From: Candidatus Gastranaerophilales bacterium
GTDB taxonomy: Bacteria > Cyanobacteriota > Vampirovibrionia > Gastranaerophilales > Gastranaerophilaceae
NCBI GenBank assembly: GCA_944322855.1
Contig: CALUQG010000001.1
Span: 124,001 to 188,000, forward strand
Direction: 5' to 3'
DNA length: 64,000 nucleotides
Each line of letters starts with the position of its first letter. Position 1 is the first letter of the stretch. A model generated the notes under the pieces. It was not told where the DNA came from. It did not search any database and was given only the letters and a program-made list of their open reading frames with translations. This document shows, one piece after another, positions 17,739 to 26,801 of this stretch. The position numbers and the translations under genes are program-made.

Positions 17739-20369
17739 CTAAAATTGACTCAAAATATTCTTTGGCGCAACTATTGCCGTAACATACGGAGTATCAAAAT
17801 ATTTGTTTGCTGCTTTGATTACATCCGTAGGTGTTATGCTTTGAATGAGTTCAGGAAACTCTTTGATATAACAGAATCCTCTTCCTGAAAGTTCAAACCA
17901 ACCAAGCGTTGAAGCTTTTTCCATATTTGTTTCCTGTGAAAGGATAAAATTGCCGAGAATCTTGTCCTTTGCCTCCTGCAATTCGTTTTCCGAAACAAAT
18001 TCTTTTTTCAGCGTATTTATCTGTTTTAAAAGTTCATTTTTAGAATGAAGCGCTGTTTGCGGATTTGTTCCGATATAAAGAGCAAATACACCTTGATTTA
18101 CGTTAGGAAGAAAAGTAGAACCGACCTGATAAGCAAGCCCCTGCTCTCCGCGAAGATTGCTAAAAAGTCTGGAACTCATACCATTTCCTAAAAGTGCGTC
18201 AATTACCTGCAATGCGGCTATATCACGTTTATCTTTTTCTGTAATTCCGTCTGTAAGCCATCCGAGAATAACCCATGCTGCTTCTGAATCTTTTGCTGTT
18301 TTAACTGTTACATTTGACTTAAGGGGAGGGAAACTGCTTTTATAGATTGCATAATCAAATTTCTTGGCTTCACATCCCTGTTTTTCTGTGAAAATATTTG
18401 ACAGCTGCTCAATTACTGCTTTGTCATCAACATTTCCGTTGATAGAGATTATAAGGTTTTCAGGACAGAAAATACTGTTGTAAAAATCAATTATATCCTC
18501 ACGTTTAAGTGAAGGAATTGTTTTTTCAAGAACTTTTCCTGTTATTCCGTAAGGTGTATTTTTCCAGATCTCTGTTTTGAAATCTTCAAAAGCAACACTT
18601 GAAGGAGTATCTCTCATTTTTTGTATAGCATAAATTTTTTCTGTTTTAATTTTTTCAATTTCCTGTGGATCAAAAGATGCATTGTTGACAATTTCGTTTA
18701 ATAAATCGAATGTCAAAGGCAAATCATTTTTTGTTGTTTTTACAGATATAGAAAACATATCAGAACCTTGAGAAGGAACGATTTTAATACCATTCTGCTC
18801 CATTGTTTGCGACAAATCTATTGCTGAATATTTTTTTGTTCCTTTCATCATTGCAGCTGCTGCAACAGATCCTACACCGTATTTTTTTTCTATAAAATTT
18901 CCGCCCTTAGCGTAAATCTGCATTGCAACTATATCATTAAGCTGGTTATGATTAATTATCAGATTTATATTATTTGGCAGTTTGTATTGCGTAATTGTTT
19001 TCTCTGTTTTGATTACAACAGGCGGCTGTTTTGATATATTGCTGATTTTTTTTACTTTTGAGTCAGGCTGCTCTTCAGGGAGCATTATTGATATAACCGC
19101 ATAGTTCGGATTGAGATATTTTTTTGCTACTCTGACTATATCCTGTTTTGTCACCTTTTTGATATTAGCAATATATTCGTTATAGTAATCGGAATTACCG
19201 TAAACAAGAGTAGTGTATCCAAGTTCATTTGCAACATTTGAAGTTGATTCACGTGCATAGAAAGTGTCTCTTTCAATAATACTTTTTGCAGTATTTATAT
19301 CCTGCTCATCAAAAGTTCCGTTTGCAGTTTTTTGAAGTTCATAGAATATAGCCTTTTTGAGCTTGTCTTTGTTTGCAGGGACAAAATTGGCTCTGACAAA
19401 AATAATGCTGTCATCTTTCATTGACGCATGTCCGGCAGAAATACTGTATGCAAGCTGTTTTTGTTCTTTCACATACTGATAGAGTTTTGAACTGCGTCCG
19501 TCACCGAGAATTGTCATCAAAACATCAAGCGCATAACTGTCTTTTCTGTTTTCTTGAGGTATACCCCTAAATCCTATCATCATGTAGCCGGTTTTGACTT
19601 TTCCCCGGTCAACAATTTCAATTTGATGTTCTATATTTTTATCGGTTTTATATGACGGAGTTTTACAATTTGGGGCTTCTTTTTTATTAAACTCTTTTTT
19701 TATAAGCTCAAGGGCTTTTTCAGTATCTACATCTCCGACTACAACAGTAATCATATTAGAAGGATTGTACCAGGTATTGTAAAAATCAAGAATTTCATCC
19801 CTTGAAATATTTGAAATAATTTCTCTTGAGCCTATAACTTTTCTCTTGTACGGGTGATTTATATAAAATGATTGAATCATGTTTTCATACAATTTGTTTT
19901 CAGGGTCATCAAGTGTTTTTGAAATTTCTTCAAGAACAACTTTTCTTTCTTTCTCCAATTCTTTTCTTGGTATAAGAGGATTTAGGAGCATATCGGCATG
20001 TAAGTCCATTGCTGTTTGAAAATATTTTGAAGGCAGAGTAATGTAATAATGCGTAAAATCTTTGCTTGTAGCCGCATTTGTGACAGCACCTTTAGATTCT
20101 AATATTCTGTCAAATTCTCCTGTCGGATGATTTGTTGTTCCTTTAAAAAACAAGTGTTCAAGAAAATGAGCTACACCGTTATTTTTGTCAGTTTCATTTA
20201 TTGAACCTGTTTTTATCCAGGTATCTATAGTAACTATCGGGTTGTCGTGGACTTCTTTTATTATTACTGTCTGTCCGTTATCAAGCCTGTATGTTGTATA
20301 GTCTTGAGCAAATACAGTGTTTAATGAAAAGAACAGTATTGCCGTTATTAATAATATAATTTTTCTCAT
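17739..20369 (-). CDS. Secreted M16-family zinc protease, two-domain
   Basis: 876 residues. A signal peptide covers about 1-21 (ending VFAQ). Two pitrilysin-type halves follow. The first carries the inverted zinc motif H68-F-L-E71-H72 with the third ligand at E147 (VVLEEI), spaced as in active M16 enzymes. The second half has the M16 fold (e.g. SRLFSNLRGEQGLAYQVGST) but no HxxEH, as is normal. Such enzymes degrade peptides in the periplasm or outside the cell. It is convergent with tpiA. A second M16 protein with a different N-terminus is encoded at 36210. Confidence 0.96.
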   Translation of the reverse strand: MRKIILLITAILFFSLNTVFAQDYTTYRLDNGQTVIIKEVHDNPIVTIDTWIKTGSINETDKNNGVAHFLEHLFFKGTTNHPTGEFDRILESKGAVTNAATSKDFTHYYITLPSKYFQTAMDLHADMLLNPLIPRKELEKERKVVLEEISKTLDDPENKLYENMIQSFYINHPYKRKVIGSREIISNISRDEILDFYNTWYNPSNMITVVVGDVDTEKALELIKKEFNKKEAPNCKTPSYKTDKNIEHQIEIVDRGKVKTGYMMIGFRGIPQENRKDSYALDVLMTILGDGRSSKLYQYVKEQKQLAYSISAGHASMKDDSIIFVRANFVPANKDKLKKAIFYELQKTANGTFDEQDINTAKSIIERDTFYARESTSNVANELGYTTLVYGNSDYYNEYIANIKKVTKQDIVRVAKKYLNPNYAVISIMLPEEQPDSKVKKISNISKQPPVVIKTEKTITQYKLPNNINLIINHNQLNDIVAMQIYAKGGNFIEKKYGVGSVAAAAMMKGTKKYSAIDLSQTMEQNGIKIVPSQGSDMFSISVKTTKNDLPLTFDLLNEIVNNASFDPQEIEKIKTEKIYAIQKMRDTPSSVAFEDFKTEIWKNTPYGITGKVLEKTIPSLKREDIIDFYNSIFCPENLIISINGNVDDKAVIEQLSNIFTEKQGCEAKKFDYAIYKSSFPPLKSNVTVKTAKDSEAAWVILGWLTDGITEKDKRDIAALQVIDALLGNGMSSRLFSNLRGEQGLAYQVGSTFLPNVNQGVFALYIGTNPQTALHSKNELLKQINTLKKEFVSENELQEAKDKILGNFILSQETNMEKASTLGWFELSGRGFCYIKEFPELIQSITPTDVIKAANKYFDTPYVTAIVAPKNILSQF

Positions 20370-20524
20370 ATATAAAACCCCTCATTTTTGTCTCAATATT
20401 TAATATCAAATTATACTATAGATTTAATTATAAAATTATAATCTTAATAACAGATAAAAGGTAGTATAGTTTTATAGCTCTTTTGGTTAATGGTTTTGAA
20501 CATTAAATTGTTTAAAATGCAATT

Positions 20525-22156
20525 ATGTTTAATCCTGCGGAAAATGATTTGAACAATAACAGTAATTTCGAAAAAAATTACGCACACAAATCTCCATTCA
20601 ACGAGTGTGCGATAGAAGGTTTTTGCAGTATTGACCCGATTGTTTATTCGCTGATGGAAGTACTGCTTTATGAATTAAAGCAGCTGACCTATTATTATGT
20701 AAAAATGCAAGAGCTTCATTACGAAAACAAAAAACTAAAAGACAGCATAATAAATTACCTGTCTTTAATTTTGGTAGGATATGAATTTAACCGCAGTGAA
20801 TTTCAAAAAATACTGTACGAAATTCACAAAGAAAAAGAAAATGCCAAACAAACATTTACGTCTGTTTGCGAAAAACAAAATATTGACTGCCAGATTTTGA
20901 AATCCAGCATAAATTTTGAAAATTTTGATATTATGTCACTTGTAAATCAGGGTGAACAACAGGCAATCAAAAGAAACAAAGCAATAAATGCTAATATAAA
21001 AAATTTATATGAAATAATTTTAAACATAATAAAAAGTGTTTCTATAAGATTAATAGAACTTAAGTCCTATACTGATGACTATCTTCCTGAAGAAGATGCT
21101 ATATTGAAGCTTTTCAACAATCTGAATTTTTCTACTATGACAGAAGAAAAGCTAGCACAAAAAATTAATGATTTTGCAAAAGTAAATTATGACATACACA
21201 GAAAGCTCCATCGTTTTAAAGAAGAGTACTATGGAGAAATAACCCTGAACAGCGTAAATATAGGGGTAAAACAGGGGAAATCAATTCTTGCATCAGGACA
21301 GAATTTGAAGGATTTTGAGACTCTTCTTGAAGCGACAAAAGATACAGATTTGAATATATACACACATGACGGACTTATTGTTGCACATGCATATCCAAAG
21401 TTTGCAAAATACAAAAACCTTGCCGGTCATTATCAGCTTTCTTTAGACAGCATTCAATACGACTTTGCTTCATTTAAAGGGCCAACAATTGTTTTGAGAA
21501 ATTTCCAATATCTGTTAGACCGTCTCTATCGTGGAAGAATTTTCACAACCAATTTGATAGCCGGAAAAGGTATGACAAAAATAGAAAACAATAATTTTGG
21601 GTCACTGATTGAAACTGCCGAAAAATCCGAAGGATTTTTGCATAACCATCAGATTTCTTCGGTAAATGTAGGATATAACGAATTTGAAGTTATGAAAAAA
21701 ATTGAAAAAATTGTTGAAAAAATAAAAAACGGGAATATTAAACATTTGATAATCGTTGGATTACTAAATCATGCACCTGTTATTTCAGATTATTTTAACG
21801 AGCTTGAAAAAAATCTGCCGGATGATTATTTTGTTATTTCCGCATCAATTCCTTCAACAAGAAAAAATGTTTTGTATTTCGACTCGTTTTTTAATTCTTC
21901 TTTGATATACAAAATACTCGCTCAAATTAAAAAGCAAATAGACTTTGAAAAATTCCCGGTCAGTCTTTTTATTACAACATGCAATCTGCATACAATTTCT
22001 CATTTATTCAATCTGAAATATCTCGGACTGAAAAATATCATTCTGCCTCAGTGTACAACTAATGTAATCACCCCGGGGATGCTGAATTTTTTAAAAACAA
22101 AATTCGGTTTCAAACAAATAGGAAACAATGCATTAGAAGATTTAAAAAAATTATAG
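20525..22156 (+). CDS. Hybrid-cluster-protein (Hcp/prismane) homologue lacking cluster ligands
   Basis: 543 residues, the length of Hcp. Order and spacing of motifs follow Hcp: ILASGQNLKDFETLLEAT then DLNIYTHDGL (H281) and AHAYPKFAKYKNLAGHY; RGRIFTTNLIAGKG; the LIIVGLLNHAPVISDYF segment; and GLKNIILPQ with ITPGMLNFL. In active Hcp the hybrid Fe-S cluster is held by His, Glu and four Cys. By eye, H281 remains, but positions where Cys are expected read N-F (about 326), L-L (about 413), S-I-P (about 441) and F-N (about 456), and the Glu/Lys pair near 490 is gone. Near the N-terminus only C28 and C34 (ECAIEGFC) remain of the four-Cys site. It is probably not a hydroxylamine or NO reductase. No Shine-Dalgarno is seen. 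Confidence 0.75.
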   Translation: MFNPAENDLNNNSNFEKNYAHKSPFNECAIEGFCSIDPIVYSLMEVLLYELKQLTYYYVKMQELHYENKKLKDSIINYLSLILVGYEFNRSEFQKILYEIHKEKENAKQTFTSVCEKQNIDCQILKSSINFENFDIMSLVNQGEQQAIKRNKAINANIKNLYEIILNIIKSVSIRLIELKSYTDDYLPEEDAILKLFNNLNFSTMTEEKLAQKINDFAKVNYDIHRKLHRFKEEYYGEITLNSVNIGVKQGKSILASGQNLKDFETLLEATKDTDLNIYTHDGLIVAHAYPKFAKYKNLAGHYQLSLDSIQYDFASFKGPTIVLRNFQYLLDRLYRGRIFTTNLIAGKGMTKIENNNFGSLIETAEKSEGFLHNHQISSVNVGYNEFEVMKKIEKIVEKIKNGNIKHLIIVGLLNHAPVISDYFNELEKNLPDDYFVISASIPSTRKNVLYFDSFFNSSLIYKILAQIKKQIDFEKFPVSLFITTCNLHTISHLFNLKYLGLKNIILPQCTTNVITPGMLNFLKTKFGFKQIGNNALEDLKKL

Positions 22157-25458: not shown

Positions 25459-26130
25459 ATGAGATTATTCAAATCACACGATTTGCCCGGGACATTAATT
25501 TGTGTCGAAGGTATTGACGGGTCAGGCAAATCAACACAGCTTGCAATTCTAAGAGACTGGCTTAAATCAAAAAATCTTGATGTTATTTTTACTGAATGGA
25601 ATTCTTCAGAGCTTATTTCCCAAACAACAAAAAAAGCCAAGAAAAAAAATCTTTTGAGCCCGAGAACATTCAGTCTTTTGCATGCTGTGGATTTTGCGGA
25701 CAGACTGGAACAGATAATTATTCCGGCCTTAAAAGCAGGCTTTATAGTCCTTGCCGACAGATATGTATACACAGCATTTGCACGTGATGTTGCAAGAGGT
25801 GTCGACAGAGACTGGGTAAGAAACCTATACGGTTTTGCCGTACAGCCGGATCTGGCGCTTTATTACGATATATCTGCAGAAATTTCTCTTGAAAGAATTT
25901 GTGCAAATCGTGCACCGTCTTTTTATGAAGCAGGCATGGATTTGAAGCTCAGTAACAACCCGTATAAAAGTTATGTAATATTTCAAAACAGAGTTAACGA
26001 AGAATATGCATCTATGGTTGAAGAATTCGGACTTGTAAAAATAGATGCTAACAATACTATTCATTCAAAACAGATATTGCTAAGAAAATATGTAACTGAT
26101 GTGCTGCAGCAAAAAGGAATTCAGCTATAA
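25459..26130 (+). CDS. Thymidylate-kinase-like protein, first of a tandem pair
   Basis: 223 residues. The P-loop GIDGSGKST is at 18-26 and the DRYVYTAFARD motif near 101-111, as in thymidylate kinases, which phosphorylate dTMP. The usual EPGGT segment after the second strand is replaced by TEWNSSELIS, so substrate preference may differ. The LID region (RAPSFYEAGMDLKLS) is atypical. Its stop overlaps the start of a paralogue of identical length. Both are likely co-translated. Confidence 0.85.
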   Translation: MRLFKSHDLPGTLICVEGIDGSGKSTQLAILRDWLKSKNLDVIFTEWNSSELISQTTKKAKKKNLLSPRTFSLLHAVDFADRLEQIIIPALKAGFIVLADRYVYTAFARDVARGVDRDWVRNLYGFAVQPDLALYYDISAEISLERICANRAPSFYEAGMDLKLSNNPYKSYVIFQNRVNEEYASMVEEFGLVKIDANNTIHSKQILLRKYVTDVLQQKGIQL

Positions 26131-26801
26131 TGGAAAACAACACTAATCCTCACAATCATAAAGGCCTATTGATAGTAATAGAAGGAACAGACGGCTCAGG
26201 AAAATCTACACAAATAGAAAAACTCCGCCGCTGGATTGAAGATAAAAGCTACGGATGTATGGTTTCCGAATGGAAAACCTCACGTCTCATTGCAAATGTA
26301 ATAGATGATGCAAAAGACAGAAACCTTTTAAATGCTACAACATTCAGCCTTTTGTATGCAGCAGACTTCGCTGACAGGCTTGAGAATACAATTATTCCTG
26401 CTCTTGATTCCGGTTTTGTAGTTTTACTTGACAGATATACTTATACAGCTTTTGCACGTGATGTTGTGAGAGGACTGGATATTGACTGGGTAAAAAAATT
26501 ATACAATTATGCACCGCAGCCTGATTTAGTTTTTTATCTTGATGTGCCTATTGATATTTTACTAAAACGGGTGATAGGAACAACCGGTCTGGATTATTGG
26601 GAATCGGGACGTGATATAGGCCTGAGTACGGATTTTTATGAAAGTTTTAAAATCTATCAGGGGAAATGCCTGGAAGAATATAACAAAATGAAAGATATCT
26701 ATAATTTTGTCAGCATAGACGGAACTCTTCCCTGTGAAGAAATTCATAAAAAAATGATTTCTCACGTTGAAAAACTTTTAGAAACAGGCAAATTGGATTA
26801 A
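26130..26801 (+). CDS. Thymidylate-kinase-like protein, second of a tandem pair
   Basis: 223 residues. The P-loop GTDGSGKST is at 19-27, with DRYTYTAFARDVVRGLDIDW further on. It aligns end to end with the preceding gene (shared FADRLE-IIPAL, AFARDV-RG-D-DWV, QPDL), so the pair arose by duplication. SEWKTSRLIA replaces the canonical EPGGT motif here too. It starts at the ATG overlapping the previous stop (TAATG). No canonical tmk is in the window. One copy may supply dTTP synthesis while the other is specialised, or they may work as a heterodimer; this is inference. Confidence 0.85.
   Translation: MENNTNPHNHKGLLIVIEGTDGSGKSTQIEKLRRWIEDKSYGCMVSEWKTSRLIANVIDDAKDRNLLNATTFSLLYAADFADRLENTIIPALDSGFVVLLDRYTYTAFARDVVRGLDIDWVKKLYNYAPQPDLVFYLDVPIDILLKRVIGTTGLDYWESGRDIGLSTDFYESFKIYQGKCLEEYNKMKDIYNFVSIDGTLPCEEIHKKMISHVEKLLETGKLD

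Follow-up and report, generated by a model that had tools for sequence, protein, structure and literature searches.

The window, a stretch of 64,000 nucleotides from a Candidatus Gastranaerophilales bacterium, contained a degenerate homologue of the hybrid cluster protein (Hcp), divergent from a gene of an M16-family peptidase. The positions of the two genes, of the region between them and of the residues discussed below are listed in Table 1. The reading frame of the Hcp homologue was unbroken, beginning with ATG at 20525 and with the stop codon ending at 22156. In nearly every locus of the window's genus, the peptidase gene was found head-to-head with the degenerate gene, and the gaps between the two were mostly 115-165 bp. 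A promoter scan at the window locus gave hits at chance level only. At 25459-26801 of the window, two thymidylate-kinase-like paralogues of 223 aa each were observed, which were adjoining and overlapping.

Table 1. Genes and residues at the locus, with positions in the window. Residue numbers are those of the window protein unless E. coli is named.
Feature	Position	Strand	Basis
Two-repeat M16-family peptidase, divergent neighbour	17739..20369	-	Head-to-head pairing kept across the genus
Intergenic region of the divergent pair, 155 bp	20370..20524	.	Sequence
Hcp homologue, degenerate, full-length Prismane/Hcp fold, 543 aa	20525..22156	+	ORF, profile searches, PDB match, AlphaFold model, Foldseek
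C28-x5-C34 (E. coli C18 and C25), left over from the N-terminal [4Fe-4S] motif	20606..20626	+	Alignment
C115 (75/78 tree rows) and C122 (conserved mainly inside the genus)	20867..20890	+	Alignment
Q259 for ligand His (E. coli H249)	21299..21301	+	Alignment
G283 for ligand Glu (E. coli E273)	21371..21373	+	Alignment
F327 for ligand Cys (E. coli C317)	21503..21505	+	Alignment
L414 for persulfide Cys (E. coli C405)	21764..21766	+	Alignment
I442 for ligand Cys (E. coli C433)	21848..21850	+	Alignment
F455 for ligand Cys (E. coli C458)	21887..21889	+	Alignment
C486-N487-L-H489: N487 for ligand Glu (E492), H489 for Lys (K494)	21980..21991	+	Alignment
C510, conserved and new (T515 in the E. coli GPT loop)	22052..22054	+	Alignment

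Profile searches and structural comparisons were performed with the window protein. The Pfam Prismane profile (PF03063) matched with an E-value of 1.9e-33 and 116.4 bits, against a gathering score of 27. The matches to TIGR01703 (E 6.8e-63, 213 bits) and PRK05290 (220 bits) were under the respective cut-offs of 360.8 and 367. The class I Hcp structure 8cnr in the PDB matched residues 27-540 with an E-value of 2.1e-40. The AlphaFold model, for which an alignment of 70 relatives was the input, had a mean pLDDT of 85.8 and a pTM of 0.85, and residues 1-35, including C28 and C34, were below a pLDDT of 50. When the model was submitted to Foldseek, the top 11 matches were all Hcp, and the full-length Hcp crystal structures gave TM values of 0.75-0.78. 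Class III Hcps and then CODHs followed in the ranking. The window protein is certainly an Hcp homologue by descent. It belongs by descent to the Prismane/CODH superfamily (PF03063) and stands outside functional Hcp. The initial annotation had described the length and the motif order as those of Hcp and had called for a profile alignment to the Hcp/CODH family. The Prismane, TIGR01703, 8cnr and model matches bore this description out, and the Hcp match was significant. It had also proposed a structure prediction; Foldseek recovered the Hcp fold with TM up to 0.78.

Loss of the cluster ligands

The window protein was aligned with its relatives and with E. coli Hcp, and the ligand letters of the latter were confirmed from its sequence. 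All eight hybrid-cluster residues of E. coli Hcp, that is, the seven ligands and the active-site Lys, were replaced in the window protein. None of the seven ligands (His, two Glu, four Cys) was present in the window protein or in any same-genus copy, and in this alignment with the relatives and E. coli Hcp no Cys of the window protein was found at any hybrid-cluster position. The local alignment of F455 with C458 was less certain because a 12-residue deletion lies directly before it. Two of the four cysteines of the N-terminal [4Fe-4S] cluster were kept: E. coli C3 and C6 were lost, and C18 and C25 corresponded to C28 and C34. The window protein has six Cys in total (28, 34, 115, 122, 486 and 510), compared to the eight cluster cysteines of Hcp. 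This meant that no realignment could restore the clusters, and misalignment as the source of the apparent ligand loss was ruled out.

These results agreed with the initial annotation, in which the cluster cysteines and the Glu/Lys pair had been read as replaced. It had further stated that only H281 and two N-terminal cysteines remained. C28 and C34 were indeed kept. However, H281 corresponded to E. coli H271, which is not a ligand and never was; the loss therefore includes the His ligand. Four cysteines had been missed (115, 122, 486 and 510), three of which were conserved family-wide.

Distribution, selection and phylogeny

The gene was present in 21 of 22 same-genus genomes with an identity of 66-75%. 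The substitutions at the ligand positions were the same or similar at nearly every site across the 22 same-genus copies. Full-length frames were open in all same-genus copies, which came from independent assemblies, and dN/dS was about 0.04-0.14 in the same-genus pairs with measurable dS. In the family, 272 of 288 genomes had a TIGR01703 match, and only 108 had one above the Hcp cut-off. Among the matches listed, the TIGR01703 scores formed two groups, canonical at about 485-750 and full-length degenerate at about 245 and below, with some canonical Hcp fragments scoring between the two. In a sample from the class, the TIGR01703 matches outside the family were all above the cut-off. The named records of relatives were mostly Candidatus Gastranaerophilales MAGs. 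The gene is near-universal in its family (Candidatus Gastranaerophilales) and is under strong purifying selection.

Canonical Hcp was patchy in the window's genus, and the degenerate copy was kept. On another contig of the window's own genome (C4:142722-143095, locus L095), canonical Hcp was found as a remnant left by deletion, with a frame break. The remnant was without roughly model positions 1-50 and 145-466; the contig ended 115 bp beyond it, so an assembly fault might be involved there. Dependence of the degenerate protein on a canonical partner Hcp was rejected, since its own genome has the remnant only and most family genomes have no copy above the Hcp cut-off.

A quick maximum-likelihood tree was calculated from 112 rows, consisting of 78 degenerate proteins, 29 canonical proteins and, from families f6 and f7, five further copies. 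The 78 degenerate proteins were on one side of a branch (branch value 100) and the 29 canonical proteins were on another (100). As judged from the sequences in this tree, the degenerate proteins are one clade, with INTERMEDIATES. The five f6/f7 copies (L040, L043, L046, L052 and L053) were on the degenerate side (100) with their ligands partly stripped, and their exact place is uncertain because of long branches, for which the tree program gave a warning. The f7 copies retained E273 and C317, and L040 additionally retained C405 and the full N-terminal motif. In L052 and L053, which belong to f6, the cysteines aligned to C405 and C433 were kept and the N-terminal cysteines were lost. The neighbour of these two was a gene for a protein of 450-520 aa with a low-complexity N-terminal part. 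At one locus, three degenerate Hcp genes were found in tandem, 7-14 bp apart (L031:4620-9485; G032 contig C145:12649-17439), and the sets of N-terminal cysteines differed among them.

Conserved cysteines and gene neighbourhood

Ligands and cysteines were compared in 93 distinct members; the tree contained 78 degenerate rows. The ligand set was complete in none of the 93. The replacement letters at the ligand positions varied between genera, and the other non-cysteine residues of the pocket differed from genus to genus. The common feature was the cysteines C28, C34, C115, C486 and C510, each of which was present in more than 90% of the 78 tree rows. The search for orthologues and for residues conserved among them, suggested in the initial annotation, was thus rewarded both within the genus and across the clade. 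C486 is a new conserved Cys at the position of E. coli F491, beside the ligand position E492. C486 and C510 were absent from the aligned canonical Hcps, which mostly had Y/F and T/S at those positions.

C486 and C510 were both found in 90 of the 93 distinct members and were both missing from three, and neither was ever found alone. Their joint loss corresponded to two independent events on the tree, a number too small for a significance test, and the coupling is suggestive. In the AlphaFold model, the predicted strands 479-482 and 504-507 directly precede C486 and C510. Since the two cysteines follow two strands and C486 is beside the E492 position, the topology predicts that they should be close together at the mouth of the old active site. 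The C28/C34 pair and the C486/C510 pair were lost independently of each other and so did not act as a unit. For this reason, one new metal site built from all five cysteines was not favoured.

In many other genera, the degenerate gene was directly downstream of a gene for a glutaredoxin-like protein of 75-100 aa, with a spacing of mostly 0-20 bp. The motifs of these adjoining glutaredoxins were CPYC, CPYS or CPFC. The upstream gene could be read in 76 degenerate tree rows, and in 35 of these it was a directly adjoining glutaredoxin gene, compared to 0/29 canonical loci and 0/5 intermediate loci. Fisher's test of the degenerate against the canonical loci, which ignores relatedness, gave p of about 1e-6, and the linkage required three changes on the tree. 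The main clade had glutaredoxins of a GST_N_3-like type, and L086 and L117-L119 had classical ones; the involvement of two types speaks against shared synteny as the whole explanation. In the main clade, the rpsG and wecB flanks were also conserved, so part of the glutaredoxin linkage there is shared synteny. The window's genus had no adjoining glutaredoxin and no GST_N_3-type glutaredoxin gene. Elsewhere in the window's genome, one generic glutaredoxin was found (C2:145548), with 34% identity over half the query. A third synteny group was also observed (L125, L134, L140 and others), in which the degenerate gene was divergent from a gene for a glycine-zipper-like protein of about 100-140 aa. 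The neighbours of the canonical copies in the same order were named from sequence and not by family search. About a third of these copies adjoined a ferredoxin gene at 13-18 bp, and others adjoined FNR/CRP- or Rrf2-type regulators.

Possible function and relation to known Hcps

We propose, with a probability of roughly 0.4, that the window protein is a cluster-less Hcp descendant, which assembles no hybrid cluster and no normal [4Fe-4S] cluster and is kept for a probably thiol-based redox function. The initial annotation had suggested a new role for an Hcp fold without its active site. The presence of one clade, the purifying selection, the near-universality and the retention despite canonical loss supported this suggestion. 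Among structural, regulatory, different-cofactor and thiol roles, the sequence evidence leans toward thiol-based redox, which had not been named there. In the proposed mechanism, an ancestral Hcp would have lost its clusters stepwise and would then have taken on a thiol-based redox role. At the entrance to the vacated active site, the C486/C510 pair would change between dithiol and disulfide, or undergo thiol modification, in its action on a putative substrate. C28/C34 and C115 might form a second thiol site. Glutaredoxin would be the electron donor, replacing the ferredoxin of canonical Hcp; it would be encoded in the operon in many genera, and in the window's genus the cell's general glutaredoxin would take this part. 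The steady M16 peptidase neighbour in the window's genus, where no glutaredoxin adjoins, and the non-cysteine pocket residues that change from genus to genus speak against this reading. It is possible, albeit doubtful, that a near-core gene of the whole family has given up Fe-S-oxygen chemistry for glutaredoxin-served thiols, with partly stripped intermediates in sister families.

The protein might instead be a non-catalytic scaffold or regulator, with the fold kept for protein-protein interaction and with structural roles for the conserved cysteines. The free variation of the non-cysteine pocket residues between genera, the different neighbour genes among lineages and the unlike cysteine sets of the three tandem copies in one genome were consistent with this. 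However, the conserved new cysteines and the recurrent glutaredoxin association indicate redox chemistry, and we consider a scaffold or regulator somewhat unlikely. A new metal site, in which the conserved cysteines bind zinc, a [2Fe-2S] cluster or mononuclear iron together with H302 or D/N487, was judged unlikely. Five near-invariant Cys and the new H302 in the genus argue for it. The acidic ligand positions were also mostly acidic in other genera (E/D in 54/71 at E273 and D/E in 59/71 at E492), and a CPYS-type glutaredoxin can bind a [2Fe-2S] cluster. However, the separate loss of the two cysteine pairs does not fit such a site, and the acidic residues were lost in the window's genus.

E. 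coli hcp is annotated as a protein S-nitrosylase, and a cluster-less remnant of this enzyme could handle S-nitrosothiols or persulfides using its own cysteines, with glutaredoxin as the denitrosylase. The new thiols beside the old pocket and the glutaredoxin partner would suit this role. However, it is improbable, as no FNR/CRP- or Rrf2-type regulator was directly beside the inspected degenerate genes, unlike several canonical copies. Hcp function retained via replacement ligands would be in keeping with the predicted full-length Hcp fold, but it is effectively excluded: seven ligands and the Lys are replaced, the four Cys have become aliphatic or aromatic residues in a protein with six Cys in total, and published Hcp variants altered at E492 or at Cys residues are impaired (PMC10502027). 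A pseudogene or assembly artefact, at which ligand loss by itself could hint, is likewise effectively excluded, being refuted by the full-length open frames from independent assemblies and by the dN/dS values.

The near-universal, selected and ligand-free branch means that loss of the cluster need not entail loss of the Hcp scaffold. The canonical proteins, the f7 intermediates and the proteins with full loss make up a naturally occurring series in which the ligands disappear step by step. Annotation by a Prismane match would label such genes as Hcp/hydroxylamine reductase, so that nitrosative-stress capacity would be over-predicted in these gut bacteria. No earlier description of a ligand-free Hcp branch was found in the open-access literature, which was searched including degenerate, pseudoenzyme, glutaredoxin and Gastranaerophilales angles.

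All three described Hcp classes retain the seven ligands (PMC10502027). With class I Hcp (for example Methanothermococcus 8cnr and Desulfovibrio 1e1d), the window protein shares length, domain order, fold and cysteines three and four of the N-terminal motif. However, it is without the hybrid-cluster ligands, its [4Fe-4S] motif is incomplete, C115, C486 and C510 are new, and a 12-residue stretch is missing ahead of C458. E. coli Hcp (class II, with its partner Hcr) belongs to the same family, and its dedicated redox partner, encoded by a paired gene, offers a parallel. The E. coli partner is an NADH oxidoreductase, whereas in the degenerate clade the partner, if there is one, is a small protein of the glutaredoxin fold. 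Class III Hcp with a rubredoxin domain (M. marburgensis, PMC10502027) shows that Hcp lineages vary in their electron-donor modules. It has all seven ligands and is missing about 100 residues from its middle, whereas the window protein has the full length and none of the ligands, and its alignment over 27-540 to class I Hcp places it outside class III. The canonical Hcp paralogues of the same order (such as L056 and L067) are of the same superfamily and sit on the canonical branch of the tree. Their ligands are complete and their neighbours include ferredoxin or FNR/CRP-/Rrf2-type genes, in contrast to the ligand-free degenerate copies. The f6/f7 copies share a branch with the degenerate clade (100) and a partial ligand depletion, but they differ from it in having neither the conserved C486/C510 pair nor an adjoining glutaredoxin.
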